Shown here: positions 1 through 18,602 of the stretch, piece after piece
Position numbering within the stretch: the first letter of the stretch is position 1
Layout of the letters: every line of letters begins with the position of its first letter
Source: Bacteroidales bacterium
GTDB lineage: Bacteria > Bacteroidota > Bacteroidia > Bacteroidales > VadinHA17
NCBI GenBank assembly: GCA_024762655.1
Contig: JANTHB010000028.1
Location: 1 to 39,302, forward strand
Reading direction: 5' to 3'
DNA length: 39,302 nucleotides
The notes under the pieces: model-generated
Database searches by the model: none
What the model saw: only the letters and a program-made list of their open reading frames with translations
Told to the model about the DNA's origin: nothing
Position numbers and translations under genes: made by a program

Positions 1-1377
1 GCCATTTCCACTCCTCCCGGCAGCGGAGCCATTGCCCTGGTGCGTGCTTCCGGAGAGAGTGTCATTGAAAAATGTGCTTCGCTCATTCGTTTTTCCCAAC
101 CGGATAAAAACCTGCTGAAACAAAAGGCCGGCACACTGCATCTGGCCTCTTTCGAATCTGACGGCCGGCAAGTTGACGAGGTAATGGTGGCTGTTTTCCG
201 GGCGCCCCACTCCTACACAGGGGAAGACATGGTGGAGATCTCCTGCCATGGTTCGGTCTATATCCAGCAACAGATCCTGCTGGCTCTTACCCACCGGGGC
301 ATTCGTCCCGCACAACCGGGAGAATTCACCATGCGGGCTTTTATGAACGGCAAGATGGATCTGGCACAGGCCGAGAGCGTAGCCGACCTGATTGCTGCCG
401 AGAGTGCCGCCGCCCACCGTATTGCATTGAACCAGTTAAGGGGGACTGTCTCTGAAAAGATAAGACAACTGCGGAGACGTTTACTGGACTTTTCTTCCCT
501 GATCGAACTGGAGCTCGACTTCGGTGAGGAGGATGTGGAGTTTGCCGACCGCCGTCAGTTGCTGGCCCTGGCCGGAGAGATACGTCAGGCACTCCGGAAT
601 CTGGCCGGTTCCTTCCGTCAGGGCCGGGCCATAAAAAACGGAATTCCCGTAGCCATTGCCGGTGACCCCAATACGGGCAAATCCACCCTGCTCAACGTGC
701 TGCTGCAGGAAGAAAAAGCCATCGTTTCAGAGATCCCCGGCACCACACGGGATTTTATTGAAGATACCATCACCCTCGACGGCTATCTGTTCCGGTTCAT
801 CGACACGGCCGGCCTGCGCTCCTCTAAGGATACCATAGAAAAAATGGGCATCGACCGTTCATGGCAAAAGATCCGCCAGGCTTCCGTCATCCTCTTGCTG
901 GCCGACTGGCAGATGCCGGCTGAAAAGATAAAAGACCGCTATGAAGAGATCAAATCGCTGCTGGACAACGAAACCCAGCACCTGATTCCGGTGATCAACA
1001 AAACCGATACAGCTACCCCGGAACAATTGCAGGAAGTTAAAAAAACGTTGCATTCTTTTGCTCCTGACCCGGTTTTTATCTCCGCATTGAAAGAGACTCA
1101 TCTGGAAGTACTGAAAGCCCGCCTGAAAGAGGTAATGCATATACAGACGCCCGGCGAACAGGAGGTAATCATCAGTAATCTGAGGCACTATGAAGCCCTG
1201 ACCCGGGCCGGAGAGGCCATCGGGCGTGTCATCAACGGCCTGCAGGAAAGTCTGCCCGGCGACCTGGTAGCCCAGGACCTTCGCGAAGCCATCCACTATA
1301 TGGGCGAGATCACCGGCGAGATCACTACTGATGAGATATTGGGGAATATCTTTAAGAATTTCTGTATCGGAAAATAA
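1..1377 (+). CDS. mnmE: tRNA-5-carboxymethylaminomethyl-2-thiouridine GTPase MnmE (5' end outside window)
   Basis: MnmE works with MnmG to modify U34 in the wobble position of certain tRNAs. The frame is open from base 1, where it already encodes the folate-binding N-terminal segment with the TPPGSGAIALVRASG block, so roughly ten residues and the start codon lie off the window. The GTG at 40 is internal. The central G domain shows a P-loop (GDPNTGKST), the switch region with PGTTRDFIED, DTAG, and the NKTD specificity motif. The protein ends in the family C-terminal motif CIGK, which carries the catalytic cysteine. About 458 residues are visible, as expected for a nearly complete protein. It converges on the DUF5723 gene downstream. 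Confidence 0.97.
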   Translation, partial: AISTPPGSGAIALVRASGESVIEKCASLIRFSQPDKNLLKQKAGTLHLASFESDGRQVDEVMVAVFRAPHSYTGEDMVEISCHGSVYIQQQILLALTHRGIRPAQPGEFTMRAFMNGKMDLAQAESVADLIAAESAAAHRIALNQLRGTVSEKIRQLRRRLLDFSSLIELELDFGEEDVEFADRRQLLALAGEIRQALRNLAGSFRQGRAIKNGIPVAIAGDPNTGKSTLLNVLLQEEKAIVSEIPGTTRDFIEDTITLDGYLFRFIDTAGLRSSKDTIEKMGIDRSWQKIRQASVILLLADWQMPAEKIKDRYEEIKSLLDNETQHLIPVINKTDTATPEQLQEVKKTLHSFAPDPVFISALKETHLEVLKARLKEVMHIQTPGEQEVIISNLRHYEALTRAGEAIGRVINGLQESLPGDLVAQDLREAIHYMGEITGEITTDEILGNIFKNFCIGK

Positions 1378-1512
1378 AGAGGCCTGAACTACGGGAACCA
1401 GAGATTTTCTATTTAGGTACTTGCCACATATTCAGGATTTTAAGCCTGATTTATAACGATAGCGCGATCCCACCAGATAGCGAAAGCATTGGAGATAGCC
1501 AGCAACAACCCC

Positions 1513-7999: not shown

Positions 8000-10900
8000 C
8001 TAGGTAAGGGGCAGATATACCCAGAATGAGGTTCCCTTGCCCGGTTGACTCTCAATACGAACCGCACCGTCATGATTCTTAATGATTCCGTGAACCACCG
8101 ACAAGCCCAGCCCGGATCCTTTACCTACCGGCTTGGTAGTAAAAAAAGGTTCGAAGATTTTATCCAGCACTTCCTTCTCCATGCCTGTTCCGTTGTCCAG
8201 AAACAGGATCTGCAGATAACGTCCTGGGACAAGGTCAGGGACCTTTTGCCGAAGCTTCTGATCTGCTAAAACACTTTTAATTTCGATTTTTAACCGTCCG
8301 TCTTTTTCTTTGTTTTCCAGGGCATGCACAGCATTGCTGATAAGGTTCAGGAACACCTGACGTAGTTGCACCGGATCGGCCTGAATGTCAGGAACTTTAG
8401 GATCATGCTCAAAATCTACCGTAACCCTTCTAGGGATCTGGGGAGCCAGTAAGTCCATCGTTTCCTGCAGAATTCTGACAGGATTGGTTTTTTCTTTTTC
8501 GGGCTCAATCCCCCTGTTAAAGGTAAGAAGCTGCTGTATAATCTCCTGAGCTTTCATCCCGGAAGTTTTTATTTTTTTAAGATACATGTATTCCCGGGAA
8601 TTTTTGTCAGCTTCCTCCATCACCATATCATTGTAACCCAGCATAGTAGCAAGGATATTATTAAAGTCATGCGCCAGTCCGCCGGCGAAACGCCCAATCA
8701 TCTCAAGTTTTTGGGATCGTTGCATATATCGTTCGAGAATCATTTCCTGCGATACATCCCGCATCACCGTAACAAAATACACGACCTCCTGTTGTGCATT
8801 TCTGATAGGGGTAATATGATACTGAACAGGAATTTCCTCGTTTTCCGAGATTCTGACCGGCAGCAGCCCTGTCCAGACTTTCCCGGCCTGCACCGTATCC
8901 CAAATGTTTTGATAAACCGCAACATCCACCCCGGGATTTCTCATACTACGGGTATTTGTCCCGATCACTTCTTTTCGTTTTTTTCCTGTCATTTTAGTAA
9001 AAGCTTCATTTACATACAGGATTTTCCCGATTTTATCAGAAATGATCAGCACTTCATTCATATGTTCTATGGCTGTGTAGAGTCGCTGATTCTCATCTTC
9101 GTTCATCTTTTTCAGGATGATCGTATTGGTTTGTTCCATCAAACGGGAAATGTCAGCCAGAACATCATTCTCCAGAAAACGGTCACTAAACAGCAGGATC
9201 GCACCAAACAATATTTTGCCCTTCATGATGGGATAAGAGATCGCCGAGTGTATATTAAAAATCTTTGCGATCTCATACCCACTGATCTTATGTCCCAGAT
9301 GCTCAAAGTATTTTTCAATTCCATAATACAACATTTTCGTATCTGAAATCAAAAAAGGGGACATTTTTTTTGTTACATCCTGAAGAAACATACTGCTTTC
9401 TGTGGATAAAAACAGCTCTTCAATGCGGGTTCCGACATAGGGTTCTACACGCGATATATTATCTTCAGCAAAGGACCAGTAAACAAGTTTCACCCCTCCG
9501 TTGCCTCCATAGGAAGATTCTTTCAGGAATATTAGAACATTCTGGACAGGGAAAATCGTCTTCAACGACTCATGCATCATCTTCAGAATGTGCTGTAAGG
9601 GTTTTCCTTTGTTCAGTGCAAGATTCATCCGGTTGATCAGGTTGAGCTCTCTGCTTTGCATCAGGATTTTCTTTTCCGCTTTTTTCCGGTCCGTGATATT
9701 GACGAGGGTGGTCACAAGATGTTTCAATGTTCCATCCTTGTTCCTGATGGCAGTAATCCCGGTTTGCGTCCAGACGATGGAACCGTCTTTACGTAAATAC
9801 CTTTTTTCTCCGGTGTAATTCTCTTTCTTTCCTTCCCGCAATGGTAAAAACATCTCCCCGACCTCTTTTTTATCTTCTTCCGGAACCAATTGGGAGCAAT
9901 TTAGTTTTTTTAATTCTCTTCGGCTGTATCCGAAAAGTCGGGAACAGGACTTGTTGACATCTATGAAGTCTCCGTCTCCGGTGAGCAGCGACATCGCGAA
10001 GAAACTTTCAGAGAAAATAGTCCTGAACCTGTTTTCACTCTCCCGGAGTGCATTCTCTGCCTCTGCCAGGTCCGTGATATCCTGAATCACTCCGTGCCAA
10101 AAATAGTTTTTCCCTTTTTCCCCCTTCAGCACCCCACTGGATTTAATATATTTTGTTGAACCGTCAGGCAACAACAACCGGAATTGATCTTCGCATTTTC
10201 TGCATTTCCGGGTGGCATTCACAATTTTATGAATCACTCTTTTTCTGTCTTCGGGGTGAATATACCGGAGTAGCAGCCGCAAAGAAGGCACATCCCGGGA
10301 AGGTTCCAGTCCCAGGATATGGAAAAATTCCTCAGACCAGCGTATGGTACCGGAAGAGAGGTCCCAGCTCCAGTCACCCAAACGGGCGATGCGTTGTGCT
10401 TCCCGCAGGCTTTCTTCGCTCTCTTCCAGTTTAATCCGGTTTTTCTTTTCTTCATCAATATCCCGTATGACAGCCTGAATGTAAACCTTATCTTCCAAAG
10501 GCAAAAGATTCAGTTTTACCTGGGTATAAAAAGGTTTCCCTGCCAGGGTGCTGTGTACCCACTCAAAGGTCTGGGCTTTTCCCTTCAATACCTTCCCGAT
10601 ATATTTTTTTGCCAGTTCTGTCGAAGGGGTTCCGTCAGGTTGTAAAGGGGGAGATAAGTCCATAGGTGTTTTTCCTAACAGCTCTCTTTTCCCGGCTCCG
10701 AACATCTTCAGGGTAGCCGCATTGCATTCCACCAAAGTGTACCGGTCCATGATAATAATAGCATCCTGGGCGGTCTCAAAAAGCAAACGGATCTTTTCAG
10801 ACTGTTCTTTATACTGTCTGTCTTCCTTATCATGCCTGAGAATCATCGATATCTGGTTTGCCAGACGGTTTATCCGCTCAATCTCCTGCGTGCTGAATGG

Positions 10901-12151
10901 TACAAACCGCGATATCAACAGTATACCGAGCTTCTCTGATCGGTATCTGAGAGGAATCACCAGCACTGCCTTTACCGGGAAGTTCTCCCGGAAATCATGA
11001 ATACGCTTCTTTACCTGCTGCGGGGAACGGTTCCCCACCTCATAAATAATTTTGCGTATGTCCTCTTCTTTAGTAACATGAACGGTTTTATAACTTTTGA
11101 GGATATGATACAGAAAGCTTCTATGATCAAATCCTTTCGATAATCTCTTTATGTCCAATCCCAAAACATTCTTCACCCTGGAATAATCCCTATTCCGGAT
11201 ACCAAACCATACCTGCCTGAGCAAACGCAATTTTTCGTCATGAAGATAAATATTGCAGGTAAAAGCCCGAAACAAGTCCAGCAGATTTTCCGTGAGTGTT
11301 TTTGCAATTTGCTCGAGAAGCATCTTATCATTGCTCATCCGGTTGATAACATTCAACAGATTAATATCTTCGTTGTGCTTCCTGAGCTGTTCTTTGGCTT
11401 CTTCCTCGGCGGTAAGATCCTTTGAACTTACCACTACATAATCCGCCTCACCCGTTTCGTTCAGGTGCGGGCGGAACATTACCTCAAAGAAACGCTTGCC
11501 TTTGCCCGGAACTTCAAACCAGGCCCTGTAATGAATATCCTTTCGGGAAAAACTTTGATCGAGATAAGGTTTGATTACCTTGTTAAAGGTCTGTTGTCCC
11601 CATAGTTTTACCGGAGAACTTCCGATTAGCTGATTCTTCTTAAGATTATGGGCTTTGGAAAAAGCATCATTGATGGCCAGATAGGTATAATCCCTCCCTA
11701 TCATGGAAAGATAAGCGTCTGAAACATCCAGTAAAAACTCATATTGTTTTATCACTTCCTTTTCCGTAACCTCGGATACAGATTTCTTTTCCCATATATG
11801 GCAGATCACCTCATACAACGAATCCAATTGTGCCCTCTCAATATAGTTGACGGTTCCTGTTGTCCCTTTGATAAGAGCAATTTCATCCGGTTTTAACCGG
11901 TCCCCCACACAGATCACAGGCAGATCAGGAAAAGCATCCCGGATTTTTTTGAGAACAGGGAGCATTTCTCCCACTTTTTTTCCGGAAAAAGCAAGAAAGA
12001 CCTGTCCGGAAACATCTTCCGAATAGATTTTTTTCAACCCTTCCAGCGAACGGATATCTATCAACTGCAGCTCGGCATGCCTTTCGAAAGAACGTACAAT
12101 CCTTTCTTTATCCGGGGCGAGTACATTATAACAATAAACAATATATTCCAT
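8000..12151 (-). CDS. Large multi-PAS/GAF sensor histidine kinase
   Basis: This 1383-residue kinase appears soluble, with no transmembrane segment seen. Approximate domain order: receiver-like fold without a clear phospho-acceptor (1-125), PAS (135-250), GAF-like (260-440), PAS (452-570), PAS_3-like (580-700), PAS (705-825), GAF-like (835-1015), PAS (1020-1140), HisKA dimerisation (1145-1210) and HATPase_c (1255-1383). The H-box is GRFAGGLAHDFNNIL with His1161 as predicted phosphorylation site. The N-box is NLISNAVHAL (Asn1273), G1 is DNGTGM (Asp1319), the F-box is IFEPFFTTK and G2 is GKGSGLGL. The AHDFNNIL form of the H-box is the type often linked to hybrid or CheY-like partners. The adjacent single-domain receiver is its likely partner. 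The signal is unknown. Confidence 0.93.
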   Translation of the reverse strand: MEYIVYCYNVLAPDKERIVRSFERHAELQLIDIRSLEGLKKIYSEDVSGQVFLAFSGKKVGEMLPVLKKIRDAFPDLPVICVGDRLKPDEIALIKGTTGTVNYIERAQLDSLYEVICHIWEKKSVSEVTEKEVIKQYEFLLDVSDAYLSMIGRDYTYLAINDAFSKAHNLKKNQLIGSSPVKLWGQQTFNKVIKPYLDQSFSRKDIHYRAWFEVPGKGKRFFEVMFRPHLNETGEADYVVVSSKDLTAEEEAKEQLRKHNEDINLLNVINRMSNDKMLLEQIAKTLTENLLDLFRAFTCNIYLHDEKLRLLRQVWFGIRNRDYSRVKNVLGLDIKRLSKGFDHRSFLYHILKSYKTVHVTKEEDIRKIIYEVGNRSPQQVKKRIHDFRENFPVKAVLVIPLRYRSEKLGILLISRFVPFSTQEIERINRLANQISMILRHDKEDRQYKEQSEKIRLLFETAQDAIIIMDRYTLVECNAATLKMFGAGKRELLGKTPMDLSPPLQPDGTPSTELAKKYIGKVLKGKAQTFEWVHSTLAGKPFYTQVKLNLLPLEDKVYIQAVIRDIDEEKKNRIKLEESEESLREAQRIARLGDWSWDLSSGTIRWSEEFFHILGLEPSRDVPSLRLLLRYIHPEDRKRVIHKIVNATRKCRKCEDQFRLLLPDGSTKYIKSSGVLKGEKGKNYFWHGVIQDITDLAEAENALRESENRFRTIFSESFFAMSLLTGDGDFIDVNKSCSRLFGYSRRELKKLNCSQLVPEEDKKEVGEMFLPLREGKKENYTGEKRYLRKDGSIVWTQTGITAIRNKDGTLKHLVTTLVNITDRKKAEKKILMQSRELNLINRMNLALNKGKPLQHILKMMHESLKTIFPVQNVLIFLKESSYGGNGGVKLVYWSFAEDNISRVEPYVGTRIEELFLSTESSMFLQDVTKKMSPFLISDTKMLYYGIEKYFEHLGHKISGYEIAKIFNIHSAISYPIMKGKILFGAILLFSDRFLENDVLADISRLMEQTNTIILKKMNEDENQRLYTAIEHMNEVLIISDKIGKILYVNEAFTKMTGKKRKEVIGTNTRSMRNPGVDVAVYQNIWDTVQAGKVWTGLLPVRISENEEIPVQYHITPIRNAQQEVVYFVTVMRDVSQEMILERYMQRSQKLEMIGRFAGGLAHDFNNILATMLGYNDMVMEEADKNSREYMYLKKIKTSGMKAQEIIQQLLTFNRGIEPEKEKTNPVRILQETMDLLAPQIPRRVTVDFEHDPKVPDIQADPVQLRQVFLNLISNAVHALENKEKDGRLKIEIKSVLADQKLRQKVPDLVPGRYLQILFLDNGTGMEKEVLDKIFEPFFTTKPVGKGSGLGLSVVHGIIKNHDGAVRIESQPGKGTSFWVYLPLT

Positions 12152-12229: not shown

Positions 12230-13084
12230 TTATTTTTTTTCAACATTCATTTGTCTGGAAAGGCGATCTACGTCCTTTTTCAGCCTGGCCACCATGGAAA
12301 GAAGGTGATTTTCCGGGATGGCCGGTTCGGGCAATTCGGAGCTGATATAATGCACAAATTTCCATACTTCTCTGATATCCCGTACATGAATATCATAAGG
12401 CTCATACACAGGATTAAGGGAATACAGCCGGAGTTTGTGTTCTTTTTCCAACAGATTCTCCGCAATTTTAAAGACGATCCCTCCGTCCAGGGTGAAAACG
12501 ATATAGGCCTGGCCTGTTACGATTGTTTGCCAGTCCTGAACATATTCTCCGGTCACCCACGATCCGTCCGGAATGGGCAACATGGAATCTCCCGAAATCT
12601 GAAAAGTCCGGTATTTGCGCTCAGGAGAAAGAAACGGCAGGTTAAATGCGGGAAGCCGGCTGATATACTCAGGATCCGCATAACCGGTCTGGTAACCCGC
12701 CTTGGCTTTTTCCGGAACCAACTCGATATTCTCCTCATTATTACGGTCAACCGTGGAAGCCAGTACCCGCAGGTTGCTCCCGCGTATATAAACATCCGCC
12801 CCACGCTCCAACTGTGAAAGTTGACTCTCCGACAACGCCTGTAAATCCACTTTCAGCAAAGTATCCACCGCAATCCCGTAATAATCAGAAAAAGACATCA
12901 GAATATCCATGCCGGGCTCTGCTACCCGGTTCTCATACCCGCTCAGCGTCGGTCGCTTCATCCCCAGGGCAAAAGCTACATCATCCTGCGTACGACCTTT
13001 TCGTTTTCGCAGAAACTTGATGTTCGAACTGAAATAATTTTTCATCTGTTTCATTTTTTTCTCCGGATTTTTGTTTGCATTCAA
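12230..13084 (-). CDS. XRE-family HTH repressor with S24/LexA-like C-terminal domain
   Basis: The N-terminal helix-turn-helix (about 19-75) includes RTQDDVAFALGMKRPTLSGYENRVAEPG, the XRE/Cro-C1 pattern. The C-terminal half is an S24 peptidase-like domain: the SGDSM motif with Ser167 and a Lys at 206 in IVFKIAEN are placed like the Ser/Lys dyad of LexA and UmuD. An Ala-Gly pair (129-130, AKAGYQTG) lies upstream, where LexA-type proteins self-cleave. It is divergent from dinB, and two palindromes sit in the 99-bp spacer, so autorepression and repression of dinB-dnaE are likely. Whether it self-cleaves is inferred. Starts at Met11 or Met14 are possible alternatives. Confidence 0.9.
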   Translation of the reverse strand: MNANKNPEKKMKQMKNYFSSNIKFLRKRKGRTQDDVAFALGMKRPTLSGYENRVAEPGMDILMSFSDYYGIAVDTLLKVDLQALSESQLSQLERGADVYIRGSNLRVLASTVDRNNEENIELVPEKAKAGYQTGYADPEYISRLPAFNLPFLSPERKYRTFQISGDSMLPIPDGSWVTGEYVQDWQTIVTGQAYIVFTLDGGIVFKIAENLLEKEHKLRLYSLNPVYEPYDIHVRDIREVWKFVHYISSELPEPAIPENHLLSMVARLKKDVDRLSRQMNVEKK

Positions 13085-13090
13085 TATTTT

Positions 13091-13105
13091 GATTATATTA
13101 TAATC
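13091..13105. promoter_or_regulatory. Predicted repressor operator O1
   Basis: GATTATATTATAATC is a perfect palindrome of the form GATTA-N5-TAATC in the spacer between the XRE/S24 gene and dinB. It shares its half-sites with O2, and the two centres are 23 bases apart, about two helical turns, so two repressor dimers could bind on the same DNA face. Confidence 0.7.
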
Positions 13106-13106
13106 G

Positions 13107-13114
13107 TAATTTTG
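13107..13114 (+). promoter_or_regulatory. Predicted -7 element of dinB
   Basis: TAATTTTG matches TAnnTTTG exactly, between O1 and O2, and places the transcription start near 13121, inside O2. A -33 element at the expected distance is not clear; the nearest TTTG (13088-13091) is only 15 bases upstream. Confidence 0.5.
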
Positions 13115-13128
13115 ATTAATTACTAATC
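13114..13128. promoter_or_regulatory. Predicted repressor operator O2
   Basis: GATTAATTACTAATC again has the form GATTA-N5-TAATC, and the symmetry extends to TTTT and AAAA on the flanks. Its two edges each touch a -7 element, for dinB on the left (+) and for the repressor on the right (-), so bound repressor would block both promoters. Confidence 0.7.
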
Positions 13129-13135
13129 AAAAATA
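13128..13135 (-). promoter_or_regulatory. Predicted -7 element of the XRE/S24 repressor gene
   Basis: CAAAAATA on the plus strand reads TATTTTTG on the minus strand, an exact TAnnTTTG. It gives a leader of about 37 bases to the ATG at 13084 and overlaps the right edge of O2. Confidence 0.5.
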
Positions 13136-13183
13136 AAACAGATTTATGAAAAAAACAAATTTTTAAAAAGATTTTCAGGAATA

Positions 13184-14431
13184 ATGGAATTTAACAAACG
13201 ATCTCACGAAATGAAGCAGGCACGACCGGAAGAAGGCAGGCAGATCGTTCATCTCGATCTGGACTCATTTTTTGTGTCGGTGGAGCGTCTGCGTGACAGC
13301 CGGCTGCAGAGCAAGCCGGTCATTGTAGGCGGGATGTCCGAGCGGGGGGTGGTGGCCAGTTGCAGCTACGAAGCCCGGCGCTACGGTGTCCATTCGGCCA
13401 TGCCGGTACGGATGGCCCGTCAGTTATGTCCGGAAGCTGTGGTCGTGCGGGGCGACATGGAGCTCTACAGCCGTTATTCCCACATGGTCACGGAAATCAT
13501 TGCCGAAGAGGCTCCGGTATATGAAAAAAGTTCCATCGACGAACATTACCTGGATGCGACAGGCATGGACCGTTTTTTCGGCACCCTGAAATGGAGCCGG
13601 GAGTTGAAGGAAAAAATCGTCCGGGAGACTGGCCTTCCCATCTCTTTCGGGCTCTCCGTCAACAAAACCGTCTCAAAGATCGCCACCGGCGAGGCCAAAC
13701 CCAACGGAGAACTGATGATTCCGGCCGGGCGTGTCACTCCTTTTCTGGCTCCCCTCTCCATCCGGAAAATTCCCATGATCGGCAATAAGACCTACCGGCT
13801 GCTCCGCTCTATGGGCATATCAACCATCGGCACCCTGCAGCAGATCCCTCCGGAGATGCTGGAGAAAGTGCTGGGGAAAAACGGGGTCACCCTCTGGAAA
13901 AAGGCCCGGGGCATCGACAACAGCCCGGTAATGGATGAACACCGGAAAAAATCCGTGGGCACCGAACGTACCTTCGACCACGACACCACAGATATCCGTT
14001 TTCTGCTACGGATACTGGCCGGGATGGTCGAAAAAACAGCCTGGGAACTACGGAAACAGGGAAAGATGACTTCCTGCGTCACGGTGAAGATCCGGTACTC
14101 GGACTTTGAAACACATACCCTGCAGAAACGAATCCCGTACACCTCCTTCGACCATCTCCTGCTGGATACAGCCAAAGAGCTGTTTCGTAAACTGTACCGG
14201 CGCAGGATACTCGTACGGCTTATCGGGGTACGTTTCAGCCATCTGGTACAGGGCGTCCCGCAACTGAATCTGTTTGAGGACACCTCCGAAATCATCCGCC
14301 TCTACCTGGCCATCGACCGTCTGAGGGGAAAATACGGATTCCAGGCAGTGGGAAAAACAATGGAGGCATCACTCTCTCCGCCAATCCGGGGTCGTCCCGG
14401 CCCCTCGATACCCCCTGCGGGAGGCGGGTAG
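13184..14431 (+). CDS. dinB: DNA polymerase IV (Y-family translesion polymerase DinB)
   Basis: This is an error-prone Y-family polymerase. The first catalytic motif is HLDLDSFFVSVE with Asp25, the steric-gate region follows, and the second is SSIDEHYLDATG with Asp119-Glu120 (His replaces the commoner Ala or Phe). The thumb helix-hairpin-helix is at about 190-235 and the little-finger domain at about 250-360. A beta-clamp-binding peptide, QLNLF, lies at 360-364. The last residues (about 395-415, PPIRGRPGPSIPPAGGG) are encoded by GC-rich repeat-like DNA and are not expected in the family. It is divergent from an S24 repressor and followed by a dnaE-like gene, suggesting inducible mutagenic repair. 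Confidence 0.95.
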   Translation: MEFNKRSHEMKQARPEEGRQIVHLDLDSFFVSVERLRDSRLQSKPVIVGGMSERGVVASCSYEARRYGVHSAMPVRMARQLCPEAVVVRGDMELYSRYSHMVTEIIAEEAPVYEKSSIDEHYLDATGMDRFFGTLKWSRELKEKIVRETGLPISFGLSVNKTVSKIATGEAKPNGELMIPAGRVTPFLAPLSIRKIPMIGNKTYRLLRSMGISTIGTLQQIPPEMLEKVLGKNGVTLWKKARGIDNSPVMDEHRKKSVGTERTFDHDTTDIRFLLRILAGMVEKTAWELRKQGKMTSCVTVKIRYSDFETHTLQKRIPYTSFDHLLLDTAKELFRKLYRRRILVRLIGVRFSHLVQGVPQLNLFEDTSEIIRLYLAIDRLRGKYGFQAVGKTMEASLSPPIRGRPGPSIPPAGGG

Positions 14432-17753: not shown

Positions 17754-18602
17754 ATGAAAAAAGCACTACTCTGGATTCTGGCTATTATCATTACCCTTGG
17801 CGCTGCATACTATCAGCGCAAAACAGGCCCCACCTACCCCAGGGAAGTAAAAGTAACGCTTGACGGCAAACCATATATTTTTCATTTGTTACGCAGTCAT
17901 GGCGGGGATGATGATATGCCCGTAACCCTGATAATACCGGACAAGAAGGTTACGGGATACGTGGTGTACAAACGATTCCCCACTGCAGAGCCCTGGGATA
18001 CCACCCTGATGACGCGGCGGGGAGATACCCTGACGGCCCTGTTACCGCATCAGCCTCCTGCCGGAAAACTGGCCTACCGCATCCTCCTCAAGGCCCCGGG
18101 AGAAGGTATTGCCATCCCTGACGGAGATCCTGTGGTTGCCCGCTTCAAAGGAAGCGTGCCTGCCGGGATCCTGATCCCTCACATTCTCTTTATGTTTACC
18201 GCAATGCTGTTATCCACCCTGGCAGGTCTGATGGCCATCTGGAAAATAGGAGCCTATAAAAAATATGCCTGGACCACCCTGATACTTTTGCTCATTGGCG
18301 GAGGGTTTCTGGGACCGATGGTTCAACTGCATGCGTTCGGAGCCTACTGGACGGGGATTCCTTTCGGTTGGGACCTGACCGACAATAAAACCCTGATCGC
18401 AATTGTCTTTTGGCTTTTTGCCTGCCTTGCCGTCCGGAAAAAAGACAGGTACTGGGCCGTGGTGCTTGCTGCCATCGTCCTGATCCTGGTCTATTCCGTT
18501 CCCCACAGTATGTTCGGGTCACAATACAACTACAACACGGGAGACGTCATTCAGGGAGTTGTCATGCTTCCTTTCCTGGGATGGAACATGCTCCGGAAAT
18601 GA
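17754..18602 (+). CDS. Conserved-looking membrane protein of unknown function
   Basis: I do not recognise this 282-residue protein. An N-terminal anchor (4-20) is followed by an extracytoplasmic, mostly beta segment (about 28-130) that includes YVVYKRFPTAEPWDTTLMTRRGD. Then come about five hydrophobic segments (about 138-163, 171-190, 212-227, 232-250, 264-280). The membrane part has conserved-looking QLHAFGAYWTGIPFGWDLTDNK and NYNTGDVIQG. No catalytic motif was seen. It lies downstream of the dinB-dnaE pair after 187 bases, but nothing shows that it belongs to that system. Confidence 0.75.
   Translation: MKKALLWILAIIITLGAAYYQRKTGPTYPREVKVTLDGKPYIFHLLRSHGGDDDMPVTLIIPDKKVTGYVVYKRFPTAEPWDTTLMTRRGDTLTALLPHQPPAGKLAYRILLKAPGEGIAIPDGDPVVARFKGSVPAGILIPHILFMFTAMLLSTLAGLMAIWKIGAYKKYAWTTLILLLIGGGFLGPMVQLHAFGAYWTGIPFGWDLTDNKTLIAIVFWLFACLAVRKKDRYWAVVLAAIVLILVYSVPHSMFGSQYNYNTGDVIQGVVMLPFLGWNMLRK

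Follow-up and report, generated by a model that had tools for sequence, protein, structure and literature searches.

Organization of the Locus

As summarized in Table 1, the window (the whole stretch of 39,302 nucleotides of Bacteroidales DNA analyzed here) contains a leftward gene for an XRE/S24 repressor and a rightward dinB gene. The intergenic stretch between them measures 138 bp when counted from the likely start of the leftward gene, for which ATG 13054 and TTG 13084 are alternative in-frame starts. We would guess that the dnaE-like gene found beyond dinB is co-transcribed with it. Its product is possibly a polymerase of the error-prone type; the protein scored 485.9 bits against the error-prone model PRK05672 of NCBIfam, under the cut-off of 939 for that model. 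On the 3' side of dnaE lies a 282-aa reading frame (17754–18602, plus strand) for which neither Pfam nor NCBIfam gave a match, while the stretch downstream of the repressor gene (8000–12151, minus strand) encodes a histidine kinase of 1383 aa that carries several PAS domains as well as a single GAF domain.

Table 1. Coordinates of genes, operator sites, and promoter elements at the dinB–repressor locus
Feature	Position	Strand	Remarks
XRE (HTH_3) + S24 peptidase repressor gene	12230–13045	-	stop included; ATG 13045 is the likeliest start
Proposed dinB -33, TTTG	13070–13073	+	20 nt upstream of the proposed -7
O1, GATTA-TATTA-TAATC	13091–13105	.	exact match; core contains the proposed dinB -7
Proposed dinB -7, TATATTAT (TAnnTTRT)	13094–13101	+	within O1; register from TTG spacing
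TAnnTTTG, dinB box of the initial annotation	13107–13114	+	exact in 11/71 loci; probably no promoter element
O2, GATTA-ATTAC-TAATC	13114–13128	.	exact match; last base common to the repressor -7 box
Repressor promoter -7, TATTTTTG	13128–13135	-	CAAAnnTA exact in 62/71 loci
Repressor promoter -33, TTTG	13156–13159	-	from sequence; 20 nt from the -7
dinB, Y-family DNA polymerase IV	13184–14431	+	Pfam IMS, 155.6 bits
dnaE-like DNA polymerase III alpha, 976 aa	14636–17566	+	Pfam DNA_pol3_alpha; NCBIfam polc over cut-off

The initial annotation of this DNA had pointed to two copies of the palindrome GATTA-N5-TAATC with centers 23 bases apart, and a pattern search recovered exactly these two sites (O1 and O2) and no third one in the window. 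In 100 shuffles of the window the pattern occurred 0.08 times on average, and no shuffle contained two sites. The genome as a whole contains four exact copies (O1, O2, and two unpaired single sites), roughly what chance would give in 3.4 Mb for a pattern with 10 fixed bases. One of the latter (L001) falls within an OmpA-like reading frame and the other (L004) upstream of a TetR-like gene (both labels were assigned by eye from the translations), and we took both as chance occurrences. Upstream of the dnaE-like gene of the window we found no operator pair, the best single sites there matching 8 of the 10 bases.

The repressor combines an HTH_3 domain (Pfam, 48.1 bits) with a Peptidase_S24 domain (30.7 bits), both above cut-off. 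The canonical LexA winged helix-turn-helix (PF01726) gave no Pfam match at E 0.001, HTH_3 standing in its place. An Ala-Gly pair (in KAKAG), a serine (in GDSM), and a lysine (in VFK) occupy invariant columns in alignments of 16 and 21 sequences. The top NCBIfam match was a phage RstR repressor, which scored 35.9 bits where the cut-off is 80. When solved structures were searched with a profile, the HTH region alone was matched (E 0.01). A structure model of the protein was weak (pLDDT 62, pTM 0.37); in it the S24 domain is followed by a long helix at the C-terminus, which, speculatively, could serve dimer contacts.

Conservation of the Operator Pair

A search for the repressor in 40 genomes, the window's own included, gave 30 matches at E ≤1e-3, of which 26 were long (E ≤1e-63) and the last four were short HTH matches. 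A scan of named genomes returned at least 578 relatives. The best 80 of these were kept; judging from their titles they come from metagenome assemblies, and by our count by eye 50 of the 80 are titled 'Bacteroidales bacterium'. At least 100 nt of upstream sequence was available for 75 of the 80, and these constitute the set of loci chosen by protein.

The initial annotation had proposed aligning the same spacer in related genomes as a check. Of the 75 loci, 68 contained the pair with a spacing of 23 or 24 bp (at a cut of at least 17 of 20 bases; the loci are near relatives and not independent), as opposed to none in 20 rounds of dinucleotide shuffling. With a stricter cut of 18/20, 57 pairs stood at 23 bp and 8 at 24 bp, while no other distance between 15 and 60 accounted for more than two. 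When the best pair of each of the 75 loci was counted instead, 59 fell at 23 bp, 8 at 24 bp, and four at 44, 51, 52, and 60 bp; L067, L108, L142, and L144 had no passing pair. At the cut of 17/20, seven of the 75 loci lack a pair at 23 or 24 bp. The divergent partner of the repressor gene was dinB in 67 of the 74 loci for which 250 nt or more were available.

The suggestion that the palindromes serve as operator for an XRE/S24 regulator thus gains support from their conservation in related spacers. Also supported is the idea that, from these positions, a single repressor could close both genes and regulate itself.

Genes Preceded by the Pair Elsewhere

We also searched 393 genomes of the order for the pattern only, as a double GATTA-N5-TAATC with a free spacing of 0–30. 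This yielded 51 places in 49 genomes, 46 of them at 23 bp, three at 24, and one each at 20 and 21, while the control, the same pattern reversed, gave a match in a single genome of the 393 (G049). A repressor, dinB, dnaE, or SRAP (SOS response associated peptidase) gene was present within the fetched stretch at 48 of the 49 places with a spacing of 23 or 24 bp, L053 being the sole exception. None of these four genes was found near the places at spacing 20 and 21, and the corresponding genomes had no repressor at 1e-20. Of the 49 genomes with a pattern match, 43 contain the repressor itself (E 1e-40), versus 125 of the 344 without (Fisher p 4e-12, a value uncorrected for relatedness). When three mismatches were allowed, 47 of the 59 genomes of the window's family contained a match, versus five of 59 for the control pattern; some of the places with three mismatches are probably due to chance.

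Thirteen places were examined at which O2 has no repressor gene beside it and the pair precedes dnaE, dinB, or a small gene. Twelve of them, from 11 genomes, have no repressor anywhere in the fetched stretch. A repressor was nonetheless found in eight of the 11 genomes (in one case as a fragment at a contig end), whereas G272, G269, and G403 carry a remote pair and no repressor that we could find. The eight repressor genes have a pair of their own in four cases, a single site in one, and none in three. In three genomes of one genus (L057–L059), the gene opposite the repressor is SRAP, in place of dinB, with the same pair in between. Upstream of recA, no site matching at least 9 of 10 bases was found within 400 nt in 29 genomes, the window's own included; the best matched 8 of 10. 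With dnaE, dinB, and SRAP as targets and no site at recA, the regulon seen here is therefore small and centered on mutagenesis.

Some small genes also adjoin exact pairs. At L050 and L051, 86-aa genes (1237–1497, minus strand) that precede dnaE start a few bases after O2, and so does the 101-aa gene at L053 (1192–1497, minus strand). The L050 and L053 proteins had no Pfam match. We regard the small genes of the three loci as candidates for members of the mutagenesis regulon that have so far escaped notice.

Promoter Register

Bacteroidetes promoters are described in PMC7366714 as having a -7 element TAnnTTTG and a TTTG near -33. In the window, TAnnTTTG occurs at chance frequency (31 found versus 28.3 expected), so the boxes at this locus carry weight only through conservation. 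The initial annotation had noted an exact TAnnTTTG on each side of O2 and assigned one to each gene. Both boxes are indeed there, and the leftward one, belonging to the repressor, is well conserved: CAAAnnTA follows O2 directly in 62 of 71 loci, with a TTG separated from it by 20 nt in 41 loci, 19 in 12, and 18 in 5.

The assignment of the rightward box (13107) to dinB did not hold up. It is exact in only 11 of the 71 loci, and a further 26 have it with one mismatch. In 36 of the 71 a TTG lies 15 nt upstream of it, and at 17–23 nt a TTG is found in isolated cases only; that 15-nt TTG is part of the T-rich flank of O1 and lies nearer than the 18–20 nt of the repressor promoter. We therefore rejected the 13107 box as a general dinB -7.

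A better fit is offered by the sequence TATATTRT inside O1, which differs from TAnnTTTG in the last two bases and is near-invariant in 59 aligned loci. Among the 33 loci in which the O1 flank is non-coding, 28 have a TTG 19–21 nt upstream of TATATTRT, while three-base windows not overlapping this peak contain at most 12. Where the stretch encodes the start of the repressor, a TTG occurs at this distance in 22 of 64 loci. The dinB promoter is thus likely to read TTG-N19–21-TAnnTTRT, with its -7 within O1, which would place O1, and not O2, on the likely dinB promoter. A -7 element inside O1 would also explain why the O1 center is nearly invariant despite the tolerance to change of the operator spacer reported for relatives of the repressor (PMC8565304).

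The 13 promoters without a repressor gene beside O2 were read in the same way, towards the gene. The O1 core was TAnnTTRT in 12 and TATATTTT in one; the search pattern itself dictates TA and the final T here, which leaves TTR alone as informative. A TTG was present at 19–21 nt in eight, and the other five had none there. The repressor-type -7 was exact in just two of the 13, and one of these two (L064) has a repressor gene 2.2 kb further on.

Proposed Mechanism and Alternatives

Our preferred reading, to which we assign a probability of roughly 80%, is that O1 and O2 form a single operator module for the neighboring XRE/S24 repressor, which represents a branch that has diverged within the non-canonical LexA family of Bacteroidetes, and that together they would constitute an autoregulated and probably RecA-inducible switch for mutagenic polymerases. 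In the undamaged cell, repressor dimers would occupy O1 and O2 side by side. The dimers would probably touch each other, since the centers of the two sites almost invariably lie 23 or 24 bp apart, a spacing kept also where no repressor promoter is seen. Occupancy of O1 would cover the -33 and -7 elements of dinB, and occupancy of O2 those of the repressor gene (Table 1), so that RNA polymerase would be blocked at both promoters. Upon DNA damage, RecA filaments would lead the repressor to cleave itself at the Ala-Gly bond by means of the Ser-Lys pair, and both promoters would be freed. For this branch, binding, cooperativity, RecA-dependent cleavage, and induction are inferred; relatives of the repressor were shown to bind their operators and to be inducible by mitomycin C (PMC8565304).

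Alternatively, O1 and O2 could be independent operators, one for each of the divergent promoters, their spacing being set by the distance between the promoters. In the divergent loci the arrangement is as this would require, O1 overlying the probable promoter of dinB and O2 that of the repressor gene. However, 11 of the 13 places that lack a repressor gene beside O2 also lack an exact repressor-type -7, and the 23/24-bp pair is kept there; we thus consider independent operators unlikely. The same repressor-less promoters set back the idea that the pair is merely the product of two promoters meeting. An origin of the palindromes as RNA or DNA structures (a hairpin or a terminator), or by chance in a region that is admittedly AT-rich, is scarcely credible in view of their absence from shuffled sequences, the one preferred spacing, and a context tied to a single protein family and its targets.

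It is also conceivable, though rather improbable, that the protein is a phage-type XRE/S24 repressor which responds to a signal other than DNA damage and merely happens to control polymerases. Its HTH of the HTH_3 type, the RstR repressor as best NCBIfam match, and the lack of a site before recA would all agree with such an origin. On the other hand, the repressor–dinB order is kept in 67 of 74 loci, dnaE and SRAP are the other targets, and the Ala-Gly, Ser, and Lys residues stand in invariant columns; moreover, PMC8565304 describes relatives that mitomycin C induces.

Comparison with Known Systems

By title and abstract, PMC8565304 was the only publication we found to treat the non-canonical LexA family in Bacteroidetes. 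It describes two groups, with operators CTAA-N5-TTAG and GGA-N5-TCC, and reports both as absent from Bacteroidales on the basis of complete genomes. The order as defined for our genomes may be broader than the Bacteroidales of that study, which may explain part of the disagreement. In the main text of PMC8565304 the word stem 'cooperativ' does not occur.

The window repressor shares with that family the HTH_3 N-terminus and S24 C-terminus, the Ala-Gly bond and Ser-Lys dyad, operator sites upstream of both its own gene and error-prone polymerase genes, and homology to proteins whose genes bear CTAA-N5-TTAG (homologues found in this work; the reference proteins of PMC8565304 were not in the alignment). 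Pfam found no canonical LexA DNA-binding domain in it. It has neither the CTAA-N5-TTAG nor the GGA-N5-TCC operator, GATTA-N5-TAATC being in their place, and the full SOS regulon with a recA operator was not seen in the 29 genomes.

At 1e-20, the repressor profile matched in 63 of 296 genomes of the phylum, the window's own included. CTAA-N5-TTAG was present upstream of 14 of the 29 homologues examined from other orders, and profile matches with this upstream motif reached 2.4e-82. CTAA-N5-TTAG sites can also be paired in another order, 23 bp apart at L174 and 22 bp at L173. In a quick tree of 83 proteins, one branch (SH-aLRT 93) separated GATTA from CTAA rows, with unassigned rows on both sides. 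The recognition-helix stretch reads KR[SP]TLSGYEN in most GATTA rows, versus KRSLxGAYEE or NRAxIGSYEE in most CTAA rows.

Both types occur in the window's own order. Among 19 lower-scoring homologues from this order, seven had CTAA-N5-TTAG (the paralogues L271–L275, L277, and L278), three a GATTA-type pair, and nine neither. An rSAM_link_UDG DNA repair gene lies opposite the repressor at the two CTAA loci that we checked, L272 and L274. We take this gene to be of the COG4277 kind named in PMC8565304.

Seven further repressor copies came from five genomes, four of which had more than one match listed or were chosen as genomes of that kind. Two copies (in G237 and G278) had a GATTA-type pair and five had none; G237 is the only genome shown to hold both the CTAA and the GATTA operator types. 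G087 and G411 contribute three higher-scoring copies, two of them adjoining dinB, that lack the GATTA pair, which suggests that in that family the motif may have undergone another shift. The repressor genes L291 and L296, which stand beside dinB without a GATTA pair, have in common the word GTTTATATTATCAAC some 65 nt upstream, in the usual place; this is perhaps a further shifted operator.

On the preferred reading, an SOS-type system is present in an order from which such regulators were reported to be absent, and an exact, testable operator is at hand for the control of mutagenic polymerases. With roughly even odds, much of Bacteroidales could have a damage switch centered on mutagenesis, with its own LexA-like repressor and a further operator class whose two sites, at a fixed distance, act cooperatively. 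Some genomes would have, besides this switch, a CTAA-type paralogue opposite a different DNA repair gene (rSAM_link_UDG at the two loci checked), so that mutagenesis and repair would be under separate S24 repressors and operators. The CTAA and GATTA motifs, the accompanying change in the recognition helix, and the presence of paralogues in one genome make up a natural series for studying how the motif of an SOS repressor changes, and the preferred spacing of 23/24 bp makes cooperativity directly testable.

Among individual systems, lambda CI at OR and OL resembles the window repressor in having a CI-type HTH with an S24 domain and adjacent operators. The lambda operators lie about 23–24 bp apart, center to center, a distance equal to the spacing of the GATTA pair. 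Adjacent CI dimers interact pairwise (PMC5880393). The window system differs from that of lambda in having two sites rather than three and in its chromosomal DNA-repair targets. HdiR and UmuDAb, as described in PMC8565304, are likewise S24 regulators distinct from LexA, and their minimal regulons consist mostly of error-prone polymerases; they belong to other bacterial families.

Two parallels are found within Bacteroidetes. The TTAC-N5-GTAA regulator of Elizabethkingia anophelis, according to the account given in PMC8565304, also has a diverged dyad-N5 palindrome, and its gene stands opposite that of an error-prone polymerase, both being induced by mitomycin C; it differs in its half-site, in belonging to Weeksellaceae, and in that one site is named. 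The other is the Pontibacter actiniarum type of the CTAA group (PMC8565304), a homologous XRE + S24 protein with Ala-Gly and Ser-Lys, whose dyad with N5 is found before its own gene and whose targets include error-prone polymerases. The branch of the window is set apart from it by its side of the tree, its recognition helix, the GATTA-N5-TAATC motif, the pair at 23/24 bp, the absence of a recA site among the genomes searched, and its occurrence in an order from which PMC8565304 reports both groups missing. Taken together, the homology, the tree, and the difference in operator suggest that the window repressor works like the non-canonical LexA family and appears to descend with it, while its operator places it in neither of the two named groups.
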